64,000 bases of DNA. Origin: Providencia huaxiensis (GTDB lineage: Bacteria; Pseudomonadota; Gammaproteobacteria; Enterobacterales; Enterobacteriaceae). Where the stretch lies: NCBI RefSeq assembly GCF_002843235.3, contig NZ_CP031123.2:3038001-3102000 (forward strand), in the 5' to 3' direction. Each line of letters starts with the position of its first letter. Position 1 is the first letter of the stretch. This document shows positions 47,427-64,000 of this stretch, in pieces. The notes under the pieces are model-generated. The model did no database searches. It had not been told where the DNA came from and saw only the letters and a program-made list of their open reading frames with translations. A program made the translations under genes and the position numbers.

Positions 47427-48083
47427 TTACTGAGCATCTTTGCCATATTTAGGTGATCTAGGCCCATATAAGATACCATTAGGCTTACCTGCAGATAATA
47501 ACCTGACACTTGTTATACCCGCAATTGCATAGCTTTTGTCCGTCATTGTATCTACGATTTGGTTAACAACCGCTGAAACTAATGCTCCAATAATGCCATT
47601 TGAGGAAGAATTATTTTCAGCACTCGATGCCGTCGCGGAGCCACTCCATAATAATGTCCCTGTTCTGGCATCAACCAATTTCGCATCCGCGGTGACCCGA
47701 GTGTCACTAGAAATGACCTGATAACTTGTACCATACTCAGTAATATTCAAATAAAGTACTGCATCAGTACCAAAAATTTCGCGCAATTTTGCAGGTGGAA
47801 CAGCCTGAATATCGCCCGCATTTGTTATCCCATTTTGCTTAAATGTTTCTTCAACAACAGCAACAGGGAAAACATAATAACCCGCTTCAGCTAAAGGAAG
47901 CGTCGTTTGTGATAATAATCCATGACTGGCTTGTACTTCTGGTGAGCTATTTTGTGGTAACAGCACCAGAATACTTTTGGGCTTACTTTGATTAAATGCC
48001 GTGTAATCAACTTTCGTTGGCTGAGCACACCCCGTTAATAACCATGTCATTATCAATCCACAGACTATAAGTAAATGTTTCAT
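47427..48083 (-). CDS. DUF799 (GNA1162-family) outer-membrane lipoprotein
   Basis: The 218-residue lipoprotein has a signal peptide ending in the lipobox LLTGC (lipid Cys at about 19). The remainder matches the GNA1162/DUF799 family, with SHGLLSQTTLPLAEAGYYVFPV and a Gly/Ser-rich C-terminal part. The fold resembles TolB/CsgG N-terminal domains, and the GNA1162 protein of Neisseria is a surface-antigen candidate. Its start overlaps the preceding DUF4810 gene by four bases. The exact role of the trio is unknown. Confidence 0.85.
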   Translation of the reverse strand: MKHLLIVCGLIMTWLLTGCAQPTKVDYTAFNQSKPKSILVLLPQNSSPEVQASHGLLSQTTLPLAEAGYYVFPVAVVEETFKQNGITNAGDIQAVPPAKLREIFGTDAVLYLNITEYGTSYQVISSDTRVTADAKLVDARTGTLLWSGSATASSAENNSSSNGIIGALVSAVVNQIVDTMTDKSYAIAGITSVRLLSAGKPNGILYGPRSPKYGKDAQ

Positions 48084-48433
48084 TTTACTTTTCCTTTATT
48101 CTTCATGAGAAAATCCATGTAAGCCGCAGATTCTGGATACAATGCTTTTTCTGCAGTAAATTCTTGCATTGCAAGATCAATCGCTCCGGTTGTTGAATAC
48201 AATAACCCTAAATGCGCATGCAGCCCCGGTGGAGTTGCCAAACCATTTGCTTTACTCATTTCCAAATTCTTTTTCAAAGCTTGAATTTGTTCTTGAGGGC
48301 CAGTTTCTGTTTGTTGGTAATATTGGTAAACCGTTGTTTGATAACCGTCCCAGTGATATAGCGGTTTTGGTTCATTAGCACAGCCATTTAATAAAATAGT
48401 ACCGGCTAAAACAGCCAATAATTTAATTTTCAT
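48080..48433 (-). CDS. DUF4810 lipoprotein
   Basis: This 117-residue lipoprotein has the lipobox LLNGC (Cys at about 18) followed by EPKPLYHWDGYQTTVYQYY, typical of DUF4810. A short helical TPR-like part follows (GLHAHLGLLYSTTGAIDLAM). It is the middle gene of the three-lipoprotein operon, 9 bases after the CsgG-like gene and overlapping the DUF799 gene. Confidence 0.85.
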   Translation of the reverse strand: MKIKLLAVLAGTILLNGCANEPKPLYHWDGYQTTVYQYYQQTETGPQEQIQALKKNLEMSKANGLATPPGLHAHLGLLYSTTGAIDLAMQEFTAEKALYPESAAYMDFLMKNKGKVK

Positions 48434-48442
48434 GTTATTCCC

Positions 48443-49117
48443 TTATTTAGCTGGCTGCCATGCACCACTTTCAATACCAGAAACTAAGTTATTTACAGCT
48501 TCCCTAATTGCTAAATCTAATACTTTGCCATTTAAAGTTGAGTCATAACTGGCTGTGCCACCAAAACCAATCACTTCCCTATTTGATAATTCATATTCAC
48601 CAGCACCTTGTGAAGAAAATACCACTTCAGATGTTTGAACATTAACAACGTTTAAATTAACTTTGGCATAAGCGACTTGTGATTTTCCACGCCCTAAAAT
48701 ACCGAATAACTGGCGATCTCCTACTTCTTTTCGCCCAAATTCAGTCACATCACCAGTAATCACGTAAGTTGCACCTTTTAACTGTTGCGATTGGCCTTTA
48801 ATTCCAGCTTCTTCTTTAAGTTCTTGCATATTTGCACGGTCTAATACATTAAAACGCCCCGTTTGCTGCAAATGTGTCATCAAAATAGTTTTAGATTGAT
48901 TACCTAAGCGATCAACGCCATCAGAGAAAATGCCATTCATATAACTAGAACGATTATCAAATTTCCCTATTGATATTGGGCTTTTAGGACCTGAATATTG
49001 CGTGTTATATGTTGCAACTTTTTCTACGGCTAAGGAACGAGAAGATTCTTTAGCACAACCGGTTAATAATGCACTTGCAATAAAAATTGATGCAATGCTG
49101 ATTTTGGATATATTCAT
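48443..49117 (-). CDS. CsgG/HfaB-family lipoprotein
   Basis: The 224-residue protein has a lipoprotein signal with LLTGC (Cys at about 21). A CsgG-type domain follows, with PISIGKFDNRS, LMTHLQQTGRFNVLDRANMQEL and YVITGDVTEFGRKEV. In curli systems CsgG forms the outer-membrane secretion pore. This member is shorter and lies with DUF4810 and DUF799 genes, not with curlin genes. Pore formation is therefore uncertain. It is the first gene of the operon, with about 580 bases of AT-rich sequence upstream. Confidence 0.85.
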   Translation of the reverse strand: MNISKISIASIFIASALLTGCAKESSRSLAVEKVATYNTQYSGPKSPISIGKFDNRSSYMNGIFSDGVDRLGNQSKTILMTHLQQTGRFNVLDRANMQELKEEAGIKGQSQQLKGATYVITGDVTEFGRKEVGDRQLFGILGRGKSQVAYAKVNLNVVNVQTSEVVFSSQGAGEYELSNREVIGFGGTASYDSTLNGKVLDLAIREAVNNLVSGIESGAWQPAK

Positions 49118-53808: not shown

Positions 53809-54531
53809 ATGACAGCGATGACATCACAACCTGCATATAAGCAAATTCAGTCTTACATTTTACGCAGTATTGATTTAGGAATTTTTAAGCCTGAAACTCA
53901 AATTCCCACAGAACTTGAGCTGTGCGCTCAATTTAATGTGAGCCGTATGACGGTGAATAAGGCCATTTCCGAGTTAAGCCAAAAAGGGATCTTGAATCGT
54001 ATTGCAGGAAAAGGCACATTTGTTGCCACTCAAAAACATGAACTCCCCGTTACAAAAGCATTTGATATTTTTGATGAAATTTCAACAAGCGGTAATAAAT
54101 ATAGCGGTCACCAATTACAGCTTAAAATTATTTCGGCATCAGCAGAAATCGCGCTACAGCTAGGAATTAGTGAAGGAAGTGATGTGGGTTACTGTAAAGT
54201 TCTACATTTTGAAAATGATATTCCTTTAATGTTAGAAGAACGCTATGTTAATCATGCCATTGTGCCTGATTTTGTTAAGCAAAAATATGGTGACACTGAA
54301 ACGCCGAGCGGTTATTTACAACGCCATTTTCCTGTTAGTGAAATGGAACATACTATTGAAGCCGCATTAGCCACAAAATCCATTGCTCAATCATTATCAA
54401 TTAAAGAAAACTCACCTTGCTTACAACTTAGCCGTCGCACTTGGACAGGTAGCACTCTAATTAGCTACGTTAATATGATCACAGCTGGCTCGCGTTACAA
54501 ATTAAAATTACATTCGCGAATTGAGAATTAA
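53809..54531 (+). CDS. hutC: GntR-family regulator, HutC type (histidine/urocanate utilisation repressor)
   Basis: The 240-residue protein has a GntR winged helix (about 10-75) with IPTELELCAQFNVSRMTVNKAI and GKGTFVA. A UTRA effector domain follows (about 95-235), containing MLEERYVNHAIVPDF and the C-terminal SYVNMITAGSRYKL. The combination is that of HutC, which represses hut genes and releases DNA on binding urocanate. The convergent minus-strand cluster contains hutU, supporting the assignment. The start at 53809 or the in-frame ATG at 53821 are both possible; neither has a strong ribosome-binding site. Confidence 0.85.
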   Translation: MTAMTSQPAYKQIQSYILRSIDLGIFKPETQIPTELELCAQFNVSRMTVNKAISELSQKGILNRIAGKGTFVATQKHELPVTKAFDIFDEISTSGNKYSGHQLQLKIISASAEIALQLGISEGSDVGYCKVLHFENDIPLMLEERYVNHAIVPDFVKQKYGDTETPSGYLQRHFPVSEMEHTIEAALATKSIAQSLSIKENSPCLQLSRRTWTGSTLISYVNMITAGSRYKLKLHSRIEN

Positions 54532-54537
54532 TGCAAA

Positions 54538-54564
54538 ATAAAAAAATGGGGCAAAATTGCCCCA
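54538..54564. terminator. Terminator shared by hutC and the etf genes
   Basis: TGGGGCAA/TTGCCCCA (54547-54554 with 54557-54564) has a two-base loop. Seven A residues on the left give a T run on the minus strand, so it is a strong end for the etf unit and a weaker one for hutC. Confidence 0.85.
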
Positions 54565-54618
54565 AAGCGACTGATAAAACAAAAATATCAAGCACAACTA
54601 CATCACAACAAATTCGTT

Positions 54619-56301
54619 TTACATTCCCTGATAAATAGGGCCTTCGCCTCCTTGCGGGGCTGTCCAAGTGATATTCTGTAACGGGTCTTTAATATCACAA
54701 GCCTTACAATGTAGGCAGTTTTGCGCATTAATTTGCAGTTTTTCTTCGCTCTTATCCTCTACAATTTCATAGACTCCCGCGGGGCAATAACGCGTCTCGG
54801 GCGCAGCATATTTCATTAAATTAACTTGGATAGGGACATTAATATCCGCCAATTTTAAATGGCAGGGTTGTTCCTCTTCATGATTCGTATTCGATAAAAA
54901 CACGGAAGAAGGCTTATCAAAAATTAATTTTCCATCGGGTTTTGGGTAATTTATTGGCGAAAAATTTCGTGCTTCTTTTATTCCTTCATGGTCTGCGTGT
55001 TTTAGCTTTAAAGTCCACGGACTACGGCCTTTTAATAACAATTGTTCCGCACCAAATAACATTGACCCAATCACTAACCCTTTTTTCATATAGGGTTTAA
55101 AATTGCGTGTTTGATAAAGTTCTTGATATAGCCAGCTCTCTTCAAATAGCTGGCGAAATTGTTTTTTAAACTGTGAATAGTCAACCATTCCATTCTGGTT
55201 AGCACTGAACCAGGCTTCTGCTGCTAATAACCCACTTTTCACTGCACAGTGTGTACCTTTAATTCGAGCTGCATTAAGAAAACCTGCATCATCACCGATT
55301 AATACACCACCGGGAAAGCTCAATTCAGGTAACGCGGCCAGCCCACCGGCCACCATCGTTCTAGCGCCATAGCTAATACGCTCTCCCCCTGATAAAAAAG
55401 CACTAAACTCAGGGTGGGTCTTTAAACGCTGAAACTCATCAAACGGTGATAAATAAGGGTTTTCATAATTTAACCCGACTACCAAACCCACTGCGACTAA
55501 GTTATCTCCATAGTGATAAGCAAAGCCGCCGCCATAGGTGTGGTTATCTAGGGGCCAACCAACAGAATGCACAACCAGCCCTGCTTGGTGTTGCTCTTTG
55601 GGAATTTGCCAAATCTCTTTGATGCCCAAGCCATAGGTTTGTTTACCGCTCTCTGCGGCTAAATTAAAATGATTTATCAATCTCTTACCTAGCTGGCCAC
55701 GGCACCCTTCCGCAAAAAAGGTCATTTTTGCCAGTAAATTCATACCTGGTTGGTACATCGCTGTTGGGTTGCCTGATTTATCCAGCCCCATGTCTCCGGT
55801 GGTGACGCCTATTACTTGGTTTTTATCATCAAACAGCACGTCAGTGGCAGCAAATCCGGCAAAAACATCAACACCTAATCTTTCAGCCTCAACGGCAAGT
55901 GCAGCACTTATCTGCCCTAAGCTACCAATGAGGTTGCCATTATTTTTCAAACAGCTTGGCAATAAAGATAGAGGTAAATGGCTCGCTTTATTTTCTTTCA
56001 ACCATAAAAAACGGTCATGGTTTACAGGGGTTAAAGAAGCCGACACCTTTTGTTGCCAATCTGGCAGCAATTCATCAAGAGCCCGAGGGTCTATCACCGC
56101 GCCAGATAAAATATGAGCACCTATCTGCGCACCTTTATCAATTAAACAAACTGATATCTCTGTGCCTTTCTCTGCTGCTAGCTGCTTTAATCGTATTGCT
56201 GCAGATAACCCTGCGGGTCCACCACCGACAATCAGGACATCGAACTCCATCGATTCCCGCTCGGGAGCCTCGTTTATCTTATCAATATTGTCGATAGCCA
56301 T
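54619..56301 (-). CDS. Electron transfer flavoprotein-ubiquinone oxidoreductase
   Basis: ETF-QO moves electrons from reduced ETF to the quinone pool at the inner membrane. The 560-residue protein has the N-terminal FAD motif VLIVGGGPAGLSAAIRL (about 25-41) and the IDKGAQIGAHILSG segment. The C-terminal [4Fe-4S] domain has Cys residues in RYCPAGVYEI and NAQNCLHCKACDIKDP. It is a full-length ETFDH type, not the shorter FixC/FixX split form. It is the last gene of the minus-strand array, 11 bases after etfA. Confidence 0.95.
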   Translation of the reverse strand: MAIDNIDKINEAPERESMEFDVLIVGGGPAGLSAAIRLKQLAAEKGTEISVCLIDKGAQIGAHILSGAVIDPRALDELLPDWQQKVSASLTPVNHDRFLWLKENKASHLPLSLLPSCLKNNGNLIGSLGQISAALAVEAERLGVDVFAGFAATDVLFDDKNQVIGVTTGDMGLDKSGNPTAMYQPGMNLLAKMTFFAEGCRGQLGKRLINHFNLAAESGKQTYGLGIKEIWQIPKEQHQAGLVVHSVGWPLDNHTYGGGFAYHYGDNLVAVGLVVGLNYENPYLSPFDEFQRLKTHPEFSAFLSGGERISYGARTMVAGGLAALPELSFPGGVLIGDDAGFLNAARIKGTHCAVKSGLLAAEAWFSANQNGMVDYSQFKKQFRQLFEESWLYQELYQTRNFKPYMKKGLVIGSMLFGAEQLLLKGRSPWTLKLKHADHEGIKEARNFSPINYPKPDGKLIFDKPSSVFLSNTNHEEEQPCHLKLADINVPIQVNLMKYAAPETRYCPAGVYEIVEDKSEEKLQINAQNCLHCKACDIKDPLQNITWTAPQGGEGPIYQGM

Positions 56302-56312
56302 TTGTCCACCTC

Positions 56313-57263
56313 TTACGCTAATGCTTTGTCAAATTCCGGTAAGATCTCAAATAGATCGCCAACAATGCCATAATCCGCGACTTGGAAAATCGGTGCCTCA
56401 GGATCACTATTAATAGCAACGATCACTTTACTTTCCTTCATACCAGCAACATGTTGAATTGCCCCGGAAATCCCTACTGCGATATATAAATCGGGTGCAA
56501 CGATTTTCCCTGTTTGTCCTACTTGGTAGTCATTTGGAACAAAACCAGCATCTACCGCAGCACGTGAAGCACCCACCGCAGCGCTAAGTTTGTCAGCTAT
56601 CGTTTCCAATAACGCAAAGTTGTCACCTGAACTCAAACCTCTCCCCCCTGAAATAACCACTTTTGCAGAACTCAATTCCGCACGGCTTACTTGGGTTAGA
56701 GATTGGCTTTTTAACTGACTACGCAAGGGAATATCAGCAAAGGAGACTTTTTCAATTTCAGCATGATTTTGCGCTTCATATCCCCCAGAAAATGCCGAAC
56801 TACGCACTGTAATGACCACCTGCTGGCCATTATTTTGTACTGTTGCTAACGCATTTCCTGCATAAATAGGCCTAATAAAAGCTTGAGGATCAATAACTTG
56901 GGTAATGTCTGAAATTTGTGCGATCCCTAACGTTGCCGCAACCCGTGGAGCAATGTTTTTACCAAATGTCGTCGCTGGAAACAGTAAATGGGTATATTCT
57001 TTTGCGATACTTGCCACTGCATGGCCCATCGGCTCTGCAAGTTGGTTTTTAAGGTTATCTGATTGTATTTCTAGGACTTTACTCACGCCCTGTATACTTG
57101 CAGCTGACTGAGCGACCTGTTCCGTCTCACTTCCTGCAACTAATAAGTGCAAATGACCACCAGCTGTGAGAAGTTGCTTTGCAGCGTTAATACTATGATA
57201 AGTAGATGTTTTTATTGTTTGATTATCATGTTCGACAACCACTAATACCGATATTTGGCTCAT
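56313..57263 (-). CDS. etfA: Electron transfer flavoprotein alpha subunit
   Basis: The 316-residue alpha subunit has the ETF N-terminal domain ([15 protein letters not shown]). The FAD-binding C-terminal domain follows, with [43 protein letters not shown] and [10 protein letters not shown]. With EtfB it accepts electrons from acyl-CoA dehydrogenase. It is 15 bases after etfB, and ETF-QO follows, so the three form a unit. Confidence 0.96.
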
Positions 57264-57278
57264 AGATATTTTCCTCGA

Positions 57279-58034
57279 TTAAATCACTTCTTTCGCTTGT
57301 AATGCACTAACTAGCTCTGTCGCGCTGCTTAACAATGTGCATTGCCCCGCTCGTTTTTTAGGTTCTGAGACACTCAGCGTTTTAATTTGCCCTAATGGCG
57401 TAAAATCCATCTCAGCAATATCGATAATATCTAACGTTTTTTTCTTAGCTTTCATGATATTAGGCAAAGTAGCATAACGAGGTTCATTGAGCCGTAAGTC
57501 CGTTGTGATAACCGCTGGTAATGGCATCTCTAACGTTTCTAAGCCACCATCAATTTCCCTTGTCACTTGCAATAATTGGCCTTCAAGCTTCACTTGTGAG
57601 GCAAATGTTGCCTGCGGATAGTCCAATAATGCACTAAGCATTTGGCCGATTTGATTACAGTCATCATCAATCGCTTGTTTGCCTAATAAAATAAGATCTG
57701 GCTGTTCCTTTTGCACAATTTGTTGAAGTAAACGTGCAATATCCAGTGGTTCTAAGGTTAACTCTTCCGGCTTTTGGACTAAAACCCCGCGATCTGCCCC
57801 AATCGCCATCGCACTGCGTAATGTATCTTGATAACCAATATCACCAACGGAAACAGCAATAACTTCTGCCGCTTTTCCCGCCTCTTTCAAACGTACAGCT
57901 TCTTCGACGGCAATTTCATCGAAGGGGTTGATGGCCATTTTGACATTTGCCAGCTCAACTCCTGAACCATCGGCTTTCACTCTTATTTTGACGTTATGGT
58001 CTATCACTCGCTTCACTGCGACTAAAATTTTCAT
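57279..58034 (-). CDS. etfB: Electron transfer flavoprotein beta subunit
   Basis: The 251-residue beta subunit begins [19 protein letters not shown], with the AMP-binding [16 protein letters not shown] and the ETF-beta signature ([35 protein letters not shown]). It is 152 bases downstream of the permease gene; that gap contains a short inverted repeat but no strong terminator. Confidence 0.96.
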
Positions 58035-58186
58035 AGCAACTCCTATCCCAATTCTTCAGCGATTGGTGGGTATGGTAATGTTCTAAAATCGTTTTTTAGG
58101 TTGAGAGAAACCGTAACAGTGATATTCACACTGCTACTGGCTATCTCAATTTTTACTATTTTGAATGCTAATTTTTTATGAAATGG

Positions 58187-59626
58187 TTATTTACTCGTAG
58201 GTAATATCAATCTGTCTGCCACTGACATAGGCCATTTTTTAATCGCCACATAGTAAATAACGCTGGTTGCGACTAAACCCACAATCCATGAGATATCAAC
58301 CCCGCCCAGTTTTTCGACTAAAGGCCCGGTATAGAAGCCCGTGGAAATAAATGGCAATTGAATCAATACCCCAACGATGTAAGTGATAATCCCAACTTTA
58401 TTCCAACGTCCATAACGGCCATTTGGATTAGCTAGCTCAGGTACATCGTAGCGGCCTTTAGTGACCCAATAGTAGTCAACGAGATTAATTGCACTCCAAG
58501 GGGTGAAAAATGCGAGTAAAAACAGCAAGAAAGCAGAGAATAACTTTAAGAATGAGTGCTGGCCTGCTAACCCTAAAGCGGTCGAGAAACTCACCATCAG
58601 AATGATGAAAAATAACCTTTGTCCGCGAGAAATTTGGCTTTTCCCTCGGAAACCACACCAGATCGCTGCCATAGACATAAAGCTACCATAAGCATTCAGT
58701 GCAGTTATGGTCACTTTCCCATAAAAAATACTGATGTACAGCAACGCTGCGATTAAACCTGTGCTACCTAACCCTACGATATAAGAGACTTCGTTACCTG
58801 CAAATTGATTGCCGGCAAGTGCTGCGGCAAAAACCCCTAAAATCATCGATGCTTGCGTACCAATCACTGTACCTGAACCGACGGCCAAAAAGGCTTTTAT
58901 TGTCGGAGTTTTAGTCGGTAAATAGCGAGAATAGTCAGCAACATAAGGCCCAAATGCAATTTGCCAAGAAGCGGACAATGACATCGCTAATAGAAAGTTC
59001 GTCCAGCTAAAATGGCGGTTTTCGAGTAGTATTGAGACATCATTCATATAAAACAGACGGAAAAATAGATAGAAGAACGTAATTACGCCTATAACGCTCG
59101 CCACTTTCCCTAAAATATGGATGATGCGATAACCACAAATTGTGATGCCGATTATCACCACACCAAAAATGATAATTCCCACCCAATCCGTCACATGTAA
59201 TAACTGACCGACTGCTTGCCCTGCCAGCACAGTACCACTAGCAGAAAACCCGACATACATCATACAAACCAGTAAGATAGGGATAACTGCACCATATACG
59301 CCAAACTGTACACGGCTCGAAATCATTTGTGGTAGCCCCAATTTCGGCCCTTGCACTGCATGCAAGGCCATCACCGCACCACCTAATAATTGGCCAATAA
59401 ATAAGCCTATTAATGACCAGAATACATCGCCACCCAGTACCACAGCCAAGGCACCAGTGACAATTGCGGTTATTTGCAAATTAGAACCAAACCAAAGTGT
59501 GAATTGGCTTGATAAGGTGCCGTGGCGCTCGGACTCTGGAATGTAGTCGATGGAACGCGCTTCGATTAAAGGTACATTCTCCTGCCGGGCTTTTTGCCCT
59601 GTTGCGATGTCGTTTGAAACTGTCAT
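58187..59626 (-). CDS. NCS1-family permease, candidate urocanate or imidazolepropionate importer
   Basis: The 479-residue protein has about 12 membrane segments and NCS1 (cytosine/allantoin/hydantoin permease) hallmarks, including LWFGSNLQITAI and GPKLGLPQMISSRVQFGVYG. In Pseudomonas hut clusters an NCS1-type carrier is the urocanate transporter. The position between hutU-linked enzymes and etf genes suggests an imidazole carboxylate as substrate rather than cytosine. A separate promoter is possible because a terminator-like hairpin lies upstream. Confidence 0.85.
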   Translation of the reverse strand: MTVSNDIATGQKARQENVPLIEARSIDYIPESERHGTLSSQFTLWFGSNLQITAIVTGALAVVLGGDVFWSLIGLFIGQLLGGAVMALHAVQGPKLGLPQMISSRVQFGVYGAVIPILLVCMMYVGFSASGTVLAGQAVGQLLHVTDWVGIIIFGVVIIGITICGYRIIHILGKVASVIGVITFFYLFFRLFYMNDVSILLENRHFSWTNFLLAMSLSASWQIAFGPYVADYSRYLPTKTPTIKAFLAVGSGTVIGTQASMILGVFAAALAGNQFAGNEVSYIVGLGSTGLIAALLYISIFYGKVTITALNAYGSFMSMAAIWCGFRGKSQISRGQRLFFIILMVSFSTALGLAGQHSFLKLFSAFLLFLLAFFTPWSAINLVDYYWVTKGRYDVPELANPNGRYGRWNKVGIITYIVGVLIQLPFISTGFYTGPLVEKLGGVDISWIVGLVATSVIYYVAIKKWPMSVADRLILPTSK

Positions 59627-59691
59627 GGTAACTCCTCTTTAAGCAAGGCTGGCTTAAAGAATGAACCAATTAATCGTAATGGAACCGCAAT

Positions 59692-59716
59692 AACTACAGT
59701 TGTAAGGTACAGTTAT
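59692..59716. promoter_or_regulatory. Inverted/direct repeat upstream of the NCS1 permease gene
   Basis: The sequence from 59692 has outer arms AACT/AGTT, an internal TTGTA-AGG-TACAG pseudo-palindrome and the repeat ACAGTT twice. It may be a regulator site for the permease, but it does not fit the HutC spacing well. Confidence 0.3.
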
Positions 59717-59855
59717 TAAGCATTACGCTGGGTGATGTTTTATCTGTTATTCACCCTAAATAACTAATTGAAATACATTCTTAAACCTGATTGTTGTTGT
59801 GTTTTTAATTCCATGATCCTGTTGTCAGGTAGTGCTTCCTATGGTGCTCCATAAA

Positions 59856-59882
59856 CCAGTAAACGCCTGTCCCGCTTACTGG
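59856..59882 (-). terminator. Hairpin after the acyl-CoA dehydrogenase gene
   Basis: CCAGTAA(G)CG pairs with CG(T)TTACTGG, read on the minus strand. It is followed by TTTATGG, a weak T run. It divides hutU-CoA transferase-dehydrogenase from the permease. Confidence 0.6.
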
Positions 59883-59901
59883 CTCAATACTGATAAATAA
59901 C

Positions 59902-61041
59902 TTAATGGGCGTCTAAAACGGCACGTGAAATAATAATTTTTTGTATTTCTGACGTCCCTTCAAAAATTCGTAAAATCCGTGCATCCCGCACATAACGCTC
60001 GAGAGGCAGGTCACGAATATAACCGTAGCCTCCGTGAAGCTGTAATGCTGCATCCGTAACAAAACCTGCGCACTCAGCTGCAAACAATTTTGCCGTAGCA
60101 GATTGCAAACTAAAACGTTCCCCTGAATCACGTAATTCCGCAGCTTGCCAAGTCAACATACGAGCAGCTTCCAATTGCGTGTGCATATCCGCAATACGCC
60201 ATTGGGTTCCTTGGTAAGCCGCTAATGGCTTTTTACCAATTTGGCGTTCTTTTACCCAGCCTAAAGCACTTTCCATCGCGGCTCGAGCAATACCTAATGA
60301 GGTTGCGGCCACTTCGACGCGCCCTTTATCTAAAACTTCCATGGCGGTATGAAACCCTTTGTTTTCCTCTCCCAGTAATGCAGATTCAGGTAGCCAACAA
60401 TTCAGTGCTAATTCATAAATGGTGCTACCCCGTAACCCCATGGTTTTTTCAGGTTGAGAAAATGCCACACCTTCCGTGCCTTTAGGGATCATAAATGCGC
60501 TGATCCCGCGAGCCCCTGCTTCTATATCCGTTTTCGCATATAACACGATGAAATCAGCTTCTTTGGCGTTAGTAATATAGTGTTTATTACCCCGAATGCG
60601 CCAGCCACCATTTTCACGAGTTGCCACGGTTCGCATATCTGCAGGGTTAGAGCCAGCAGCTGGCTCAGTTAAGCCAAATGCACCTAATAATTCCCCAGCT
60701 GCGGCTTTTGGTAACCAATGCTGTTTTTGCTCTTCTGTACCGCCAATCAGAATTGAATCTGTCGCCAAAAAATGCGCTGTTAGAGCCGATGAAGTCGAAG
60801 CACAAGCCGCTGCAACCGCTTCTACCACCTTACTCATCGCTACACTACCAATACCAAAACCGCCATACTGTTCAGGTAAATTAATTCCCCAACAGCCCAT
60901 TTCCCCCAACGCTTGTAAACTTTCAGCGCAAAAGGTTTCGGTTTCATCGTATCTTTGTGCATTCGGCTGTAAAATGTCGTGACAAACTTTTTCTATCGCA
61001 TCCACAACGGCTTGTTCTGTTTCATTAATATCAAAACTCAT
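59902..61041 (-). CDS. Acyl-CoA dehydrogenase
   Basis: The 379-residue flavoprotein is of the short/medium-chain acyl-CoA dehydrogenase type. FAD and acyl-CoA signatures are present: FGLTEPAAGSNPADMRT (about 133-149), the QLHGGYGY segment (about 337) and the catalytic glutamate in RILRIFEGTSEIQ (about 364). It overlaps the CoA-transferase gene by four bases and lies in the same array as etfAB and ETF-QO, so its electron route is encoded locally. I infer 3-(imidazol-4-yl)propanoyl-CoA as the substrate because of hutU and HutC nearby; butyryl-CoA-like substrates are the alternative. Confidence 0.92.
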   Translation of the reverse strand: MSFDINETEQAVVDAIEKVCHDILQPNAQRYDETETFCAESLQALGEMGCWGINLPEQYGGFGIGSVAMSKVVEAVAAACASTSSALTAHFLATDSILIGGTEEQKQHWLPKAAAGELLGAFGLTEPAAGSNPADMRTVATRENGGWRIRGNKHYITNAKEADFIVLYAKTDIEAGARGISAFMIPKGTEGVAFSQPEKTMGLRGSTIYELALNCWLPESALLGEENKGFHTAMEVLDKGRVEVAATSLGIARAAMESALGWVKERQIGKKPLAAYQGTQWRIADMHTQLEAARMLTWQAAELRDSGERFSLQSATAKLFAAECAGFVTDAALQLHGGYGYIRDLPLERYVRDARILRIFEGTSEIQKIIISRAVLDAH

Positions 61042-62222
61042 TGCATCGTCTCCGCATTTTTAATTGTTGTTTTCGCTGGCTTATAAACTGCGTTTGCCTC
61101 ACCTAATTTCGGGGCCCGGTGGGTCGAATGAGGTTTCTTTCCATTAAAAAAAACCGGTTGAGAAACCAATGGCGTTCCTCCGTCATTCAGGTGTGTTAGC
61201 ACTTGCCTCACTTGGGCATGCTCACTTTGTGTGGCTTGGTGTAAATTATGGATTGGTGAGGCAGGCACACCCGCGTTTAATAATATGTCGCATACCTCTT
61301 CAACGGTTTTTTGGCATGTCCAACTTTCGATTTCTTCTCGAAGCTCAGCTTGGTGCTGTGTTCGACTCGGGTCATTAAGGTAACGTGGGTCGTGGCATAA
61401 CTGCGTTTTTTCCATACACTCGCAAAAGCGTTGAAATAACTTTTCACTGGCAATCGCGATAACCACTAAACCGTCTTTTGCTTGATAGGTATCGAATGGC
61501 GTGGATACTGGATGGCGGTTCCCCACTAAGCTCGGGGCCTTATCATTCGCAAATAGGTTTGAAAGCCCAGTTAACTGCATGCTTAATAAGACATCCACCA
61601 TCGCCACATCAATATACTGTGCCGCTTCGCCATGACGCTCTCGCGAAAATAACGCACTGCTTATCGCCCATGATGCAAACATCCCTGCACACACATCGCC
61701 AATTGACTCACCGCTACGTGTTGGCCCCGTTTCTGGGAAACCCGTGACACTCATTAGGCCCGACATCGCTTGTGCCACGATGTCATAAGCGGGATAACTG
61801 GCTAATGGGCTATTTTGTCCAAAACCAGAAATACTGGCGTAGATTAATTGGGGGTTGTACTGCTTCAAGCTATCGAAATCGATACCAAGTCGTTGAGTCA
61901 CACCAGGGCGAAAGTTTTCAACTACCACATCACTTTCTTGGATTAATTGGAATAGAATCGCCCGGTCTTCGTCCGCTTTAAGATCCAATTCAATACTGCG
62001 TTTACCTCGGTTAATCAAACCGTAATAAACACTTTCGCCATCAATGAATGGCCCTAAATGGCGGCTATCATCACCGTGGTTGGGAACTTCGATTTTGATC
62101 ACTTCAGCACCGAGATCGGCCATCATACCCGTGCAATAAGGGCCGGCTAACACACGGCTTAAATCGATCACTTTGATCCCCGCCAGTGGCCCTTGTCTTT
62201 TCTGAGTTAACGCAGCATTCAT
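61038..62222 (-). CDS. Family III (CaiB/BaiF) CoA-transferase
   Basis: The 394-residue protein has the class III CoA-transferase pattern. It begins with GPLAGIKVIDLSRVLAGPYC, has DLGAEVIKIE, and carries the nucleophilic Asp176 in SIGDVCAGM. The rest of the fold is complete. It is located between hutU (56-base gap with a hairpin) and the dehydrogenase (4-base overlap). Family III enzymes move CoA between carboxylic acids, as CaiB does between carnitine and crotonobetainyl-CoA. Here urocanyl-CoA could be the CoA donor for imidazolepropionate; this is inference. Confidence 0.92.
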   Translation of the reverse strand: MNAALTQKRQGPLAGIKVIDLSRVLAGPYCTGMMADLGAEVIKIEVPNHGDDSRHLGPFIDGESVYYGLINRGKRSIELDLKADEDRAILFQLIQESDVVVENFRPGVTQRLGIDFDSLKQYNPQLIYASISGFGQNSPLASYPAYDIVAQAMSGLMSVTGFPETGPTRSGESIGDVCAGMFASWAISSALFSRERHGEAAQYIDVAMVDVLLSMQLTGLSNLFANDKAPSLVGNRHPVSTPFDTYQAKDGLVVIAIASEKLFQRFCECMEKTQLCHDPRYLNDPSRTQHQAELREEIESWTCQKTVEEVCDILLNAGVPASPIHNLHQATQSEHAQVRQVLTHLNDGGTPLVSQPVFFNGKKPHSTHRAPKLGEANAVYKPAKTTIKNAETMQ

Positions 62223-62248
62223 ACTGAATTCCTTCTATTTCAGAAAGA

Positions 62249-62271
62249 TGCCAGCTCAATTTCAGCTGGCA
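62249..62271 (-). terminator. Hairpin between hutU and the CoA-transferase gene
   Basis: TGCCAGCT/AGCTGGCA (62249-62256 with 62264-62271) has a 7-nt loop. On the minus strand it is followed by TCTTTCT, so it may be a partial terminator setting the ratio of hutU to the downstream genes. Confidence 0.55.
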
Positions 62272-62278
62272 CACGACA

Positions 62279-63946
62279 TTACTTCACCATAGGCAAACTA
62301 AGCCCTTGCTCTTTCGCACAGTTAATGGCGATGTCATAACCTGCATCTGCATGACGCATAACACCTGTTGCAGGGTCATTATGTAAAACACGCGCTAAAC
62401 GTTTATCTGCAGCATCGGTTCCATCACACACAATGACAACCCCCGAGTGCTGTGAGAAGCCCATTCCAACACCACCACCATGATGTAAACTGACCCATGT
62501 TGCACCACCAGCGGTATTTAACAGTGCATTCAATAAAGGCCAGTCTGATACGGCATCAGAGCCATCTTTCATGGATTCCGTTTCACGGTGTGGGCTTGCA
62601 ACAGAGCCTGAATCTAAGTGATCACGACCAATGACAATCGGGCCCTTTAACTCGCCACTTTTCACCATTTCGTTGAAAGCACGCCCCAATCTTTCTCTGT
62701 CTTTTAAGCCTACCCAACAAATACGAGCAGGAAGCCCTTGGAATGCGATACGTTCACGTGCCATATCGAGCCAATTATGTAAGTGTTTGTCATCGGGTAA
62801 TAATTCTTTTACTTTTTGGTCTGTTTTATAGATATCTTCTGGGTCACCTGATAACGCAACCCAACGGAATGGGCCAACACCTTCACAAAATAGTGGGCGG
62901 ATATAAGCAGGAACAAAACCAGGGAAATCAAAGGCATTGCTAATCCCTTCATCTTTTGCCATTTGGCGAATATTGTTGCCGTAGTCAAAAGCCGCTGAGC
63001 CTCGTTTTTGCATCGTTAGCATCGCATCCACTTGTACGGCCATACTTTTTTTCGCCGCTGTGGTTACCTCGGCAGGTGCAGTTTGCTGTTTTTCACGCCA
63101 TTGGGCGAGTGTCCAGCCCTGTGGTAAGTAACCGTGTACTGGGTCATGGGCACTCGTTTGGTCGGTGACTGAATCAGGGGTAATATTGCGTTTCACCAGT
63201 TCACTGTAAACATCAGCCGCATTACCTAATAGCCCAACAGAAACGGGTTGGCCATTGGCTTTGGCTTCTTCGATATATTGCAGGGCTTCATCAAGCGAAG
63301 TCGCTTTTTTGTCTACATAACGGGTTCTTAGGCGAAAATCGATACGGCTTTCATCACATTCGACCGCTATCATGCTAAAACCCGCCATGGTTGCTGCTAA
63401 CGGCTGCGCCCCGCCCATCCCACCTAAACCGCCCGTTAAGATCCAACGCCCTGCTGCGTTACCATTAAAGTGTTGTTTGGCCAGTGAAACGAACGTTTCA
63501 TAGGTGCCTTGGACGATCCCTTGAGAACCAATGTAGATCCAAGAACCAGCCGTCATTTGGCCATACATCATTAAGCCTTTACGATCTAACTCATTAAAGT
63601 GATCCCAATTCGCCCAGTGAGGAACAATATTTGAATTTGCAATCAATACACGCGGCGCATCTGGATGGGTAGGGAACACACCGACGGGTTTACCTGACTG
63701 CACTAGCAAAGTTTGGTCATCTTCCAACGTTGTTAGCACATCTAAAATTTTGTCATAGCATTCCCAATCACGTGCCGCACGGCCGATGCCACCATAGACC
63801 ACTAAGCTTTGAGGGTGCTCAGCAACATCCGGGTCTAAATTATTTTGGATCATGCGGTATACCGCTTCTGTCAGCCAGCTTTTACAGGTTTTCTCACTGC
63901 CACGTGGTGCGCGGATCACTCGAGTTGAGTCAGTACGATTTAACAT
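62279..63946 (-). CDS. hutU: Urocanate hydratase
   Basis: Urocanase adds water to urocanate, giving 4-imidazolone-5-propanoate, using tightly bound NAD+. I start at 63946 ([16 protein letters not shown]), which has AGGGG about nine bases upstream; the longer frame to 63964 begins before this site. The 555-residue protein is full length, with the glycine-rich NAD site [14 protein letters not shown] and the [18 protein letters not shown] segment near the C-terminus. Only 54 bases of upstream DNA are visible, so hutH may lie beyond the window. Confidence 0.96.
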
Positions 63947-63948
63947 GG

Positions 63949-63954
63949 TTGTAT
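63949..63954. promoter_or_regulatory. HutC-like half-site at the hutU start
   Basis: TTGTAT (GGATACAACC on the minus strand) lies just before the hutU ATG. It matches one half of HutC-type operators; the other half is not convincing. Confidence 0.25.
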
Positions 63955-64000
63955 CCCCTATCATCCATTTTTAATTAACTTTAAATTAACAATTTTATTT

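Follow-up and report, generated by a model that had tools for sequence, protein, structure and literature searches.

Why should a CoA-transferase and an acyl-CoA dehydrogenase be encoded directly beside a urocanase? The question is raised by a gene cluster of Providencia huaxiensis, located in a 64,000-nucleotide stretch of contig NZ_CP031123.2 (assembly GCF_002843235.3, positions 3,038,001 to 3,102,000), hereafter the window. The cluster comprises the urocanase gene hutU, a family III CoA-transferase (CoAT), an acyl-CoA dehydrogenase (ACAD), an NCS1 permease, both subunits of an electron transfer flavoprotein (ETF), an ETF-ubiquinone oxidoreductase (ETF-QO) and a HutC-type regulator. We consider it likely that these genes form a HutC-controlled operon for the catabolism of imidazolepropionate (ImP, dihydrourocanate), a gut metabolite with a link to diabetes, in which ImP would be converted to urocanate and handed to the histidine utilization (hut) pathway. 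The conversion had been proposed in a first-pass annotation of the window, and it is now supported by the co-occurrence of the gene pair with hut genes, by its placement inside hut operons and by a HutC-type operator sequence in the host.

In the proposed route, the NCS1 permease would import ImP, and the CoAT would move CoA onto it, most simply from urocanyl-CoA, with the release of urocanate. The ACAD would oxidise the resulting imidazolepropionyl-CoA to urocanyl-CoA, the electrons being passed by EtfAB and ETF-QO to ubiquinone, and HutU would feed urocanate into the ordinary hut pathway, whose remaining genes lie elsewhere in the genome.

Association of the gene pair with hut genes

Within the genus, the hutU-CoAT-ACAD order is kept in 21 of 23 other genomes, with the intact CoAT at 83-97% identity, and the arrangement is therefore not a matter of chance. 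The remaining two genomes hold a CoAT with in-frame stops in one case and only distant CoAT paralogues in the other. A strong ETF-QO match (>100 bits) is present in 22 of the 23. Where the CoAT is intact (21 genomes), this match lies at most 7 kb away from it, and the genome lacking this CoAT also lacks ETF-QO. Among the 12 genomes of other genera in the family sample, none has a strong ETF-QO match (4 have a weak one), compared with 11 of 24 other genomes of the order. Since strong ETF-QO is confined in the family sample to the cluster-bearing genus, the respiratory link seems to have arrived in this family with the operon. At locus L030 (genome G010), the CoAT carries in-frame stops and the ETF-QO match falls in a 317-aa frame, while the ACAD and hutU still match; the cluster module of this genome may be decaying.

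To follow the pair beyond the genus, a CoAT profile was scanned over one genome per GTDB species, and the best 80 of at least 589 CoAT stretches were used. In a maximum-likelihood CoAT tree (97 rows, quick search, SH-aLRT support only, midpoint root), 46 of the 80 loci group with the window, in a group of 60 rows including plasmid loci whose support of 87 is not starred, with an inner 57-row group supported at 96. At 32 of these 46 loci, the CoAT has hut or hut-like genes no more than about 10 kb away (27 by strict labels, or 28 when L060 is included, whose urocanase, labelled hut-like by identity, passes the cut-off for hutU but none of those for thiourocanate hydratases), and a homologous ACAD (at least 48% identity) directly follows the CoAT at 30. 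Both features occur at 18 loci and at least one at 44, the two loci with neither being cut by contig ends. The other 34 loci show no hut gene and no downstream ACAD. Fisher's exact test of 32/46 against 0/34 gives p of about 2e-11, uncorrected for relatedness, at mean stretch lengths of 18.1 and 16.4 kb, respectively. Three loci bear on how these counts are read: L099, which has no hut gene, branches off basally on the window's side when the tree is rooted at its midpoint, and was counted with the 34 (otherwise 32/47 against 0/33); L044 was counted as hut-linked through a hutU fragment at a contig end; and L047, labelled 'none' owing to a long overlapping frame, in fact has an ACAD directly downstream.

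The window group includes Providencia, Pseudomonas, Comamonas, Variovorax, Acidovorax, Acetobacter, Roseovarius, Paracoccus, Brevibacterium and Corynebacterium. In Pseudomonas lundensis (L044), the order hutU fragment-CoAT-ACAD-NCS1-etfB is that of Providencia, and an NCS1 permease gene also lies downstream of the ACAD in Pseudomonas (L044, L046) and Brevibacterium (L047, L051, L052). Sixteen plasmid stretches (L006, L121-L135) were hand-picked from match lists and are excluded from the 46/34 counts. A search of plasmid DNA returned mainly hutU relatives, and its best match led to a Paracoccus locus. In Paracoccus aminophilus the pair sits inside a hut operon on an annotated plasmid, in the order hutI-hutH-hutG-CoAT-ACAD-hutU, and it likewise lies inside a hut operon on a P. 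alcaliphilus plasmid. A Thioclava plasmid carries hutI-hutH-CoAT-ACAD, and a Mesorhizobium plasmid carries the pair beside hutC and an amino-acid ABC transporter. Conservation of the pair with hut genes outside the genus, one of the checks named in the first-pass annotation, is thus borne out. Co-occurrence with an unrelated pathway in place of hut genes would have counted against that annotation, and the opposite was found: the CoAT, mostly with the ACAD, stands alongside hut genes in three proteobacterial classes (alpha, beta and gamma) and in actinobacteria. A separate CoAT profile search of 369 Gammaproteobacteria gave no match of at least 400 bits besides the host, and 68 of the 369 genomes had a match at E 1e-80, counted irrespective of context; this sample evidently missed the known Pseudomonas carriers.

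These distributions bear on the idea that the true substrate of the ACAD and CoAT is some unrelated short-chain or aromatic acid, with regulatory convenience alone placing the two genes near a hut gene. The ACAD is closest to generic short-chain enzymes, and at some of the pairs the stretch examined shows no hut gene, as this idea would have it. The repeated association with hut genes across phyla, the positions inside hut operons and the operator-like site described below speak against it, and we regard it as scarcely probable.

The host genome contains the rest of the hut pathway. A second hut locus at 2.13 Mb holds hutH, hutU, a HutC-like gene, hutI and an amino-acid permease gene (hutU called by PF01175, the HutC-like gene by comparison, hutH and hutI by matches to annotated Paracoccus genes, and the permease by eye), and hutG scores above its cut-off at 2.29 Mb. 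Given this locus and hutG, the cluster adds an entry point at urocanate to a pathway that is otherwise present. The two host urocanases are 74% identical, and the two HutC-type proteins 37%.

HutC and the operator-like sequence

The first-pass annotation had placed a HutC-type regulator at the end of the operon. Its presence is upheld by TIGR02018, while its position is not: the gene lies on the opposite strand, convergent with ETF-QO and beside the operon. A second HutC model, NF011575, gives 182 against a cut-off of 424. For the operator, a 14-mer was first compared with promoters, which gave close matches at the hutU promoters of both hut loci and at the hutI promoter; the 11-mer core TTGTATATACA was picked after these promoters had been seen. 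This core occurs four times in the 4.8-Mb genome, three of them at hut promoters (those of hutU and hutI at 2.13 Mb and that of the cluster's hutU) and one at a further site elsewhere; a reversed-pattern control gave 0. Because the 11-mer was chosen post hoc, the telling part of this count is that there is only one other copy in the genome. No operator-like match was found upstream of the hutC and permease genes of the other locus.

At the hutU of the cluster, the core lies about 300 bp upstream, 264 bp past the window end, and fits TGTA-N2-TACA, which is described as the HutC consensus from gel shifts and footprinting in Pseudomonas (PMC12977541). In all three other Providencia checked, TGTATATACA precedes hutU at a distance of about 310-332 bp. 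The 46 window-group loci, 832 kb in all, contain 12 operator-like sites, spread over 10 of the loci, and the 559 kb of the other 34 contain none; nor was one found in the Paracoccus operons. The sites of L063, L067 and L070 are more than 1 kb from the CoAT and may belong to a divergent side with hutC and hutH. HutC would be predicted to bind the putative operator and so to control the operon. Upstream of hutU, the listed frames show by eye an opposite-strand hypothetical gene and then a branched-chain amino-acid ABC operon, so hutU is probably the first gene of its operon.

Regarding HutC regulons at large, the permease family COG1457 covers NCS1 permeases. A COG1457 permease to which no substrate is assigned is listed in a comparative study of 113 HutC regulons, whose HutC section and main text name no CoAT or ACAD (PMC5343134).

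Enzymes, layout and direction of the proposed pathway

The features of the cluster are collected in Table 1. The adjacency of hutU, CoAT and ACAD described in the first-pass annotation holds, with open frames at or near the coordinates it gave and a four-base overlap of CoAT and ACAD at 61038-61041; NCS1, etfB, etfA and ETF-QO follow downstream on the same strand, their families confirmed by Pfam. The identity of hutU also stands, and only its start is revised, since position 63946 is an internal ATG six codons into the frame beginning at 63964. An Rfam scan of window positions 40000-64000 gave no match. Apart from the cluster, two small lipoprotein-like genes lie on the minus strand at 47427-49117 of the window, resembling, by eye only, a GNA1162-type and CsgG-type pair.

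Table 1 Features of the cluster, with coordinates in the window
Feature	Coordinates	Strand	Supporting match
HutC-type GntR/UTRA repressor	53809-54531	+	TIGR02018, 244.4 bits (cut-off 220)
ETF-QO, ETF-ubiquinone oxidoreductase	54619-56301	-	PF05187 and PF21162 above cut-off (Fer4_ETF_QO, ETFQO_UQ-bd)
etfA, ETF alpha subunit	56313-57263	-	PF01012 and PF00766 (ETF, ETF_alpha)
etfB, ETF beta subunit	57279-58034	-	PF01012
NCS1 permease, proposed ImP (or urocanate) importer	58187-59626	-	PF02133 (Transp_cyt_pur)
ACAD, proposed imidazolepropionyl-CoA dehydrogenase	59902-61041	-	PF02771, PF02770, PF00441
CoAT, family III (CaiB/BaiF), proposed imidazolepropionate/urocanate CoA-transferase	61038-62222	-	PF02515 (CoA_transf_3), 403 bits
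hutU, urocanase	62279-63964	-	TIGR01228, 983 bits (cut-off 375)

None of the NCBIfam models listed for the CoAT, the ACAD, the two subunits of ETF, ETF-QO or the permease attains its cut-off, so these models put no specific function on record; the folds of the cluster proteins follow from sequence. The putative catalytic residue of the CoAT, Asp176, is invariant in 13 of 13 aligned sequences and aligns with Asp in all five solved structures listed, its role being assumed from formyl-CoA transferase. The CoAT falls below the cut-offs for the L-carnitine CoA-transferase CaiB (NF002914, 129 against 413) and for CoA:oxalate CoA-transferase (NF008511, 349 against 522). In the ACAD, all three domains are present, and the putative catalytic Glu361, in FEGTSEIQ, aligns with the EGTSE motif of all five solved structures listed; here too the role is presumed, from studied homologues. 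Its best NCBIfam model is the acryloyl-CoA reductase AcrC (NF042972), at 388 bits below the cut-off of 640, and it also scores below the cut-off for crotonobetainyl-CoA dehydrogenase (176 against 540).

By analogy with known CoA-transferase cycles, CoA may be exchanged directly between urocanyl-CoA and imidazolepropionate. Such a CoA-recycling pair fits the cluster because no ligase, hydratase, thiolase or thioesterase is found among the eight genes; enoyl-CoA hydratase, hydroxyacyl-CoA dehydrogenase, thiolase and acyl-CoA ligase, which the first-pass annotation had reported missing, indeed give no Pfam match at E 0.001 in the eight proteins. A variant of the route, in which the CoAT draws on acetyl-CoA, succinyl-CoA or a different donor, urocanyl-CoA being freed by another step without CoA recycling, seems to us rather unlikely. 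Family III transferases use many donors, and the best NCBIfam models for the CoAT are oxalate, glutarate and mesaconate transferases, each under its cut-off. The lack of a thioesterase tells against this variant, as HutU is presumably in need of the free acid.

The same enzymes might also run in reverse, converting urocanate via urocanyl-CoA to ImP, with this reduction serving as an electron sink in the way that CaiAB use crotonobetaine. A family III CoAT with an ACAD is also the pair of carnitine respiration, and a separate cai-like locus of the host, at 159-166 kb, combines a CaiB-like CoAT and an ACAD with a second ETF pair. In the genome as a whole, PF00441 has three matches (the window ACAD, one adjoining the CaiB-like CoAT, and a third within an 838-aa frame), which we count in favour of the ImP reading, and PF01012 has four, that is, two ETF pairs. 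The window ETF-QO is the sole strong PF21162 match, the other, at 44 bits, lying beside the second ETF pair. It is this strong ETF-QO, absent from the other genera of the family sample, that argues against reversal, together with the operon's urocanase, which would compete for urocanate, and with the CoAT-ACAD pairs in Acetobacter, Acidocella, Novosphingobium and Roseovarius loci, organisms known as aerobes. We therefore judge reversal improbable, and oxidation towards urocanate is favoured, in line with the first-pass annotation, because ETF-QO and urocanase share one operon.

The cluster is made of parts of known kinds, and its logic resembles that of the cai and gamma-butyrobetaine (bbu) systems. 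With the hut system (HutH, HutU, HutI, HutG/HutF, HutC) it shares a urocanase, a HutC-type regulator, a hut-type operator sequence and the same downstream steps; it differs in that the operon lacks HutH and adds CoAT, ACAD, ETF and ETF-QO. The carnitine cai system (CaiA, CaiB and FixABCX) likewise combines a family III CoAT, an acyl-CoA dehydrogenase and ETF genes, whereas the window proteins score under both carnitine cut-offs, the cluster has no hydratase or ligase and includes a strong ETF-QO, and the genome has its own cai-like locus. In the published account of bbu, an ACAD-like enzyme (BbuA), two class III CoA-transferases (BbuB and BbuC), a transporter and a thioesterase are found together; unlike the window ACAD as proposed here, BbuA eliminates trimethylamine, and the six bbu genes described include no hut gene, urocanase or ETF-QO (PMC8364193).

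Several observations weigh against the assignment to ImP catabolism. By its title, a 1965 paper reportedly found imidazolepropionate to be non-metabolizable, in another organism. No hut gene was found in the stretch examined at 14 of the 46 window-group loci (7 of these 14 are cut by contig ends, one slightly) or at 12 of the 30 loci with a CoAT-ACAD pair, and on P. yeei, Pseudosulfitobacter and Leisingera plasmids the pair lies beside LysR genes with no hut genes nearby. Upstream of the window's hutC, NCS1 and etfB no operator-like match was found, 36 of the 46 loci lack an operator-like site of the form searched, and a P. aeruginosa study describes HutC sites unlike the consensus (PMC12772324). 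The cluster contains no priming CoA ligase. A comparison of 41 related ACADs for an imidazole-specific residue signature gave many invariant positions, none of which is claimed as a signature, against a poor outgroup in which one of three sequences was the wrong protein, chosen by frame length. Finally, some CoAT relatives have other partners, so that the reaction cannot be read from the CoAT by itself.

Related transferases and the meaning of the cluster

CoAT relatives occur near a curated thiourocanate hydratase and ACAD-like genes at L064 3244-12371, L077 5327-13246 and L078 4801-13513; the ACAD-like genes checked are two in L078 and one each in L064 and L077. From their gene content, these loci hold a possible thio-imidazolepropionate counterpart of the proposed route. 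The natural substrate of the window pathway itself could be a relative of ImP, such as 2-thio-imidazolepropionate from ergothioneine or an N-methylated form, and the presence of same-group CoATs beside this hydratase at three loci would agree with that. Ergothioneine degradation (ergothionase, thiourocanate hydratase) also involves a urocanase-family hydratase. The window hydratase, in contrast, is by curated cut-offs the urocanase HutU and not a thiourocanate hydratase: it scores 983 for hutU and falls below the cut-offs for thiourocanate hydratase (697 against 930) and S-methyl thiourocanate hydratase (718 against 880). The thio-type CoATs, moreover, branch apart from the window CoAT, and their ACAD-like neighbours are only 25-26% identical to the window ACAD where matched. 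A relative of ImP as the natural substrate is thus highly improbable, and ImP remains the preferred one.

Other relatives keep different company. A zinc-type MDR reductase gene directly precedes the CoAT, with hutU close and no ACAD, at L049 3789-5977, L050 8989-12846 and L066 3158-7027. In Corynebacterium (L076 8804-11128 and L087 from 8714 onwards), hutH, hutU and CoAT stand with a distant ACAD (27-32% identity), apparently an independent pairing. At L121 7407-11866 and at L122, L123 and L130, a CoAT relative shares one operon with genes for an ABC transporter, a HutH-like ammonia-lyase, a 3-hydroxyacyl-CoA dehydrogenase and an enoyl-CoA hydratase. Loci of this type belong to Rhizobium, Agrobacterium, Neorhizobium and Sodalis, the transporter being annotated as an osmoprotectant type in Neorhizobium, and they perhaps serve the degradation of a histidine betaine. 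A HutH-like gene also lies before the CoAT at L054. At L131 2037-10338 and L127 9013-17330, the CoAT-ACAD pair adjoins ring-hydroxylating oxygenase, aminotransferase and FAD oxidoreductase genes, and at L133 7971-12340 (Paracoccus aminophilus pAMI4) the CoAT is accompanied by an annotated glucose 1-dehydrogenase and a MaoC dehydratase, together with a gene that is annotated as hutH but falls under the hutH cut-off.

This range of partners suggests that the CoAT family may act on imidazole-acrylate-type acids. We tentatively put forward, as a possibility, that the CoAT represents a widespread and unrecognised imidazole-acrylate CoA-transferase family around which several side-chain pathways have been assembled: ImP oxidation with a short-chain-type ACAD and hut genes; a thio-imidazolepropionate route with an ACAD-like enzyme and thiourocanate hydratase; one in which a zinc-type MDR reductase stands next to urocanase; and one that joins a HutH-like enzyme and an ABC transporter to enoyl-CoA hydratase and hydroxyacyl-CoA dehydrogenase and may act on histidine betaines.

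In the open-licence PMC literature, our search found no paper assigning genes to ImP catabolism. Degradation of imidazolylpropionate by Pseudomonas testosteroni, now Comamonas testosteroni, is reportedly the subject of a 1973 paper, according to its title. A CoAT named for C. testosteroni is 90% identical to the C. terrae CoAT and 92% to that of another Comamonas, and the loci of these latter two hold hutH, hutU, HutC-like genes, NCS1 and ACAD. As for the source of ImP, the proposed route would undo the reaction of urocanate reductase UrdA, an unrelated flavoprotein whose substrate is the free acid; the host genome has two FMN_bind matches, in frames of 228 and 292 aa that are shorter than UrdA. 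According to a 2025 review, UrdA makes ImP from urocanate, and gut-bacterial ImP, described there as a non-metabolizable product, has links with cardiometabolic disease and with impaired insulin signalling (PMC11872695).

If the ImP-to-urocanate reading is true, bacteria would possess an ImP sink, and degraders would be recognisable in genomes and metagenomes. The old phenotype of C. testosteroni would be explained, the name 'CoA:oxalate CoA-transferase', given to such proteins by several sources, would be corrected, and a substrate would be suggested for the HutC-linked permeases of the COG1457 family. Should the broader reading of the transferase family also be true, Providencia would represent a gut-associated sink for ImP.

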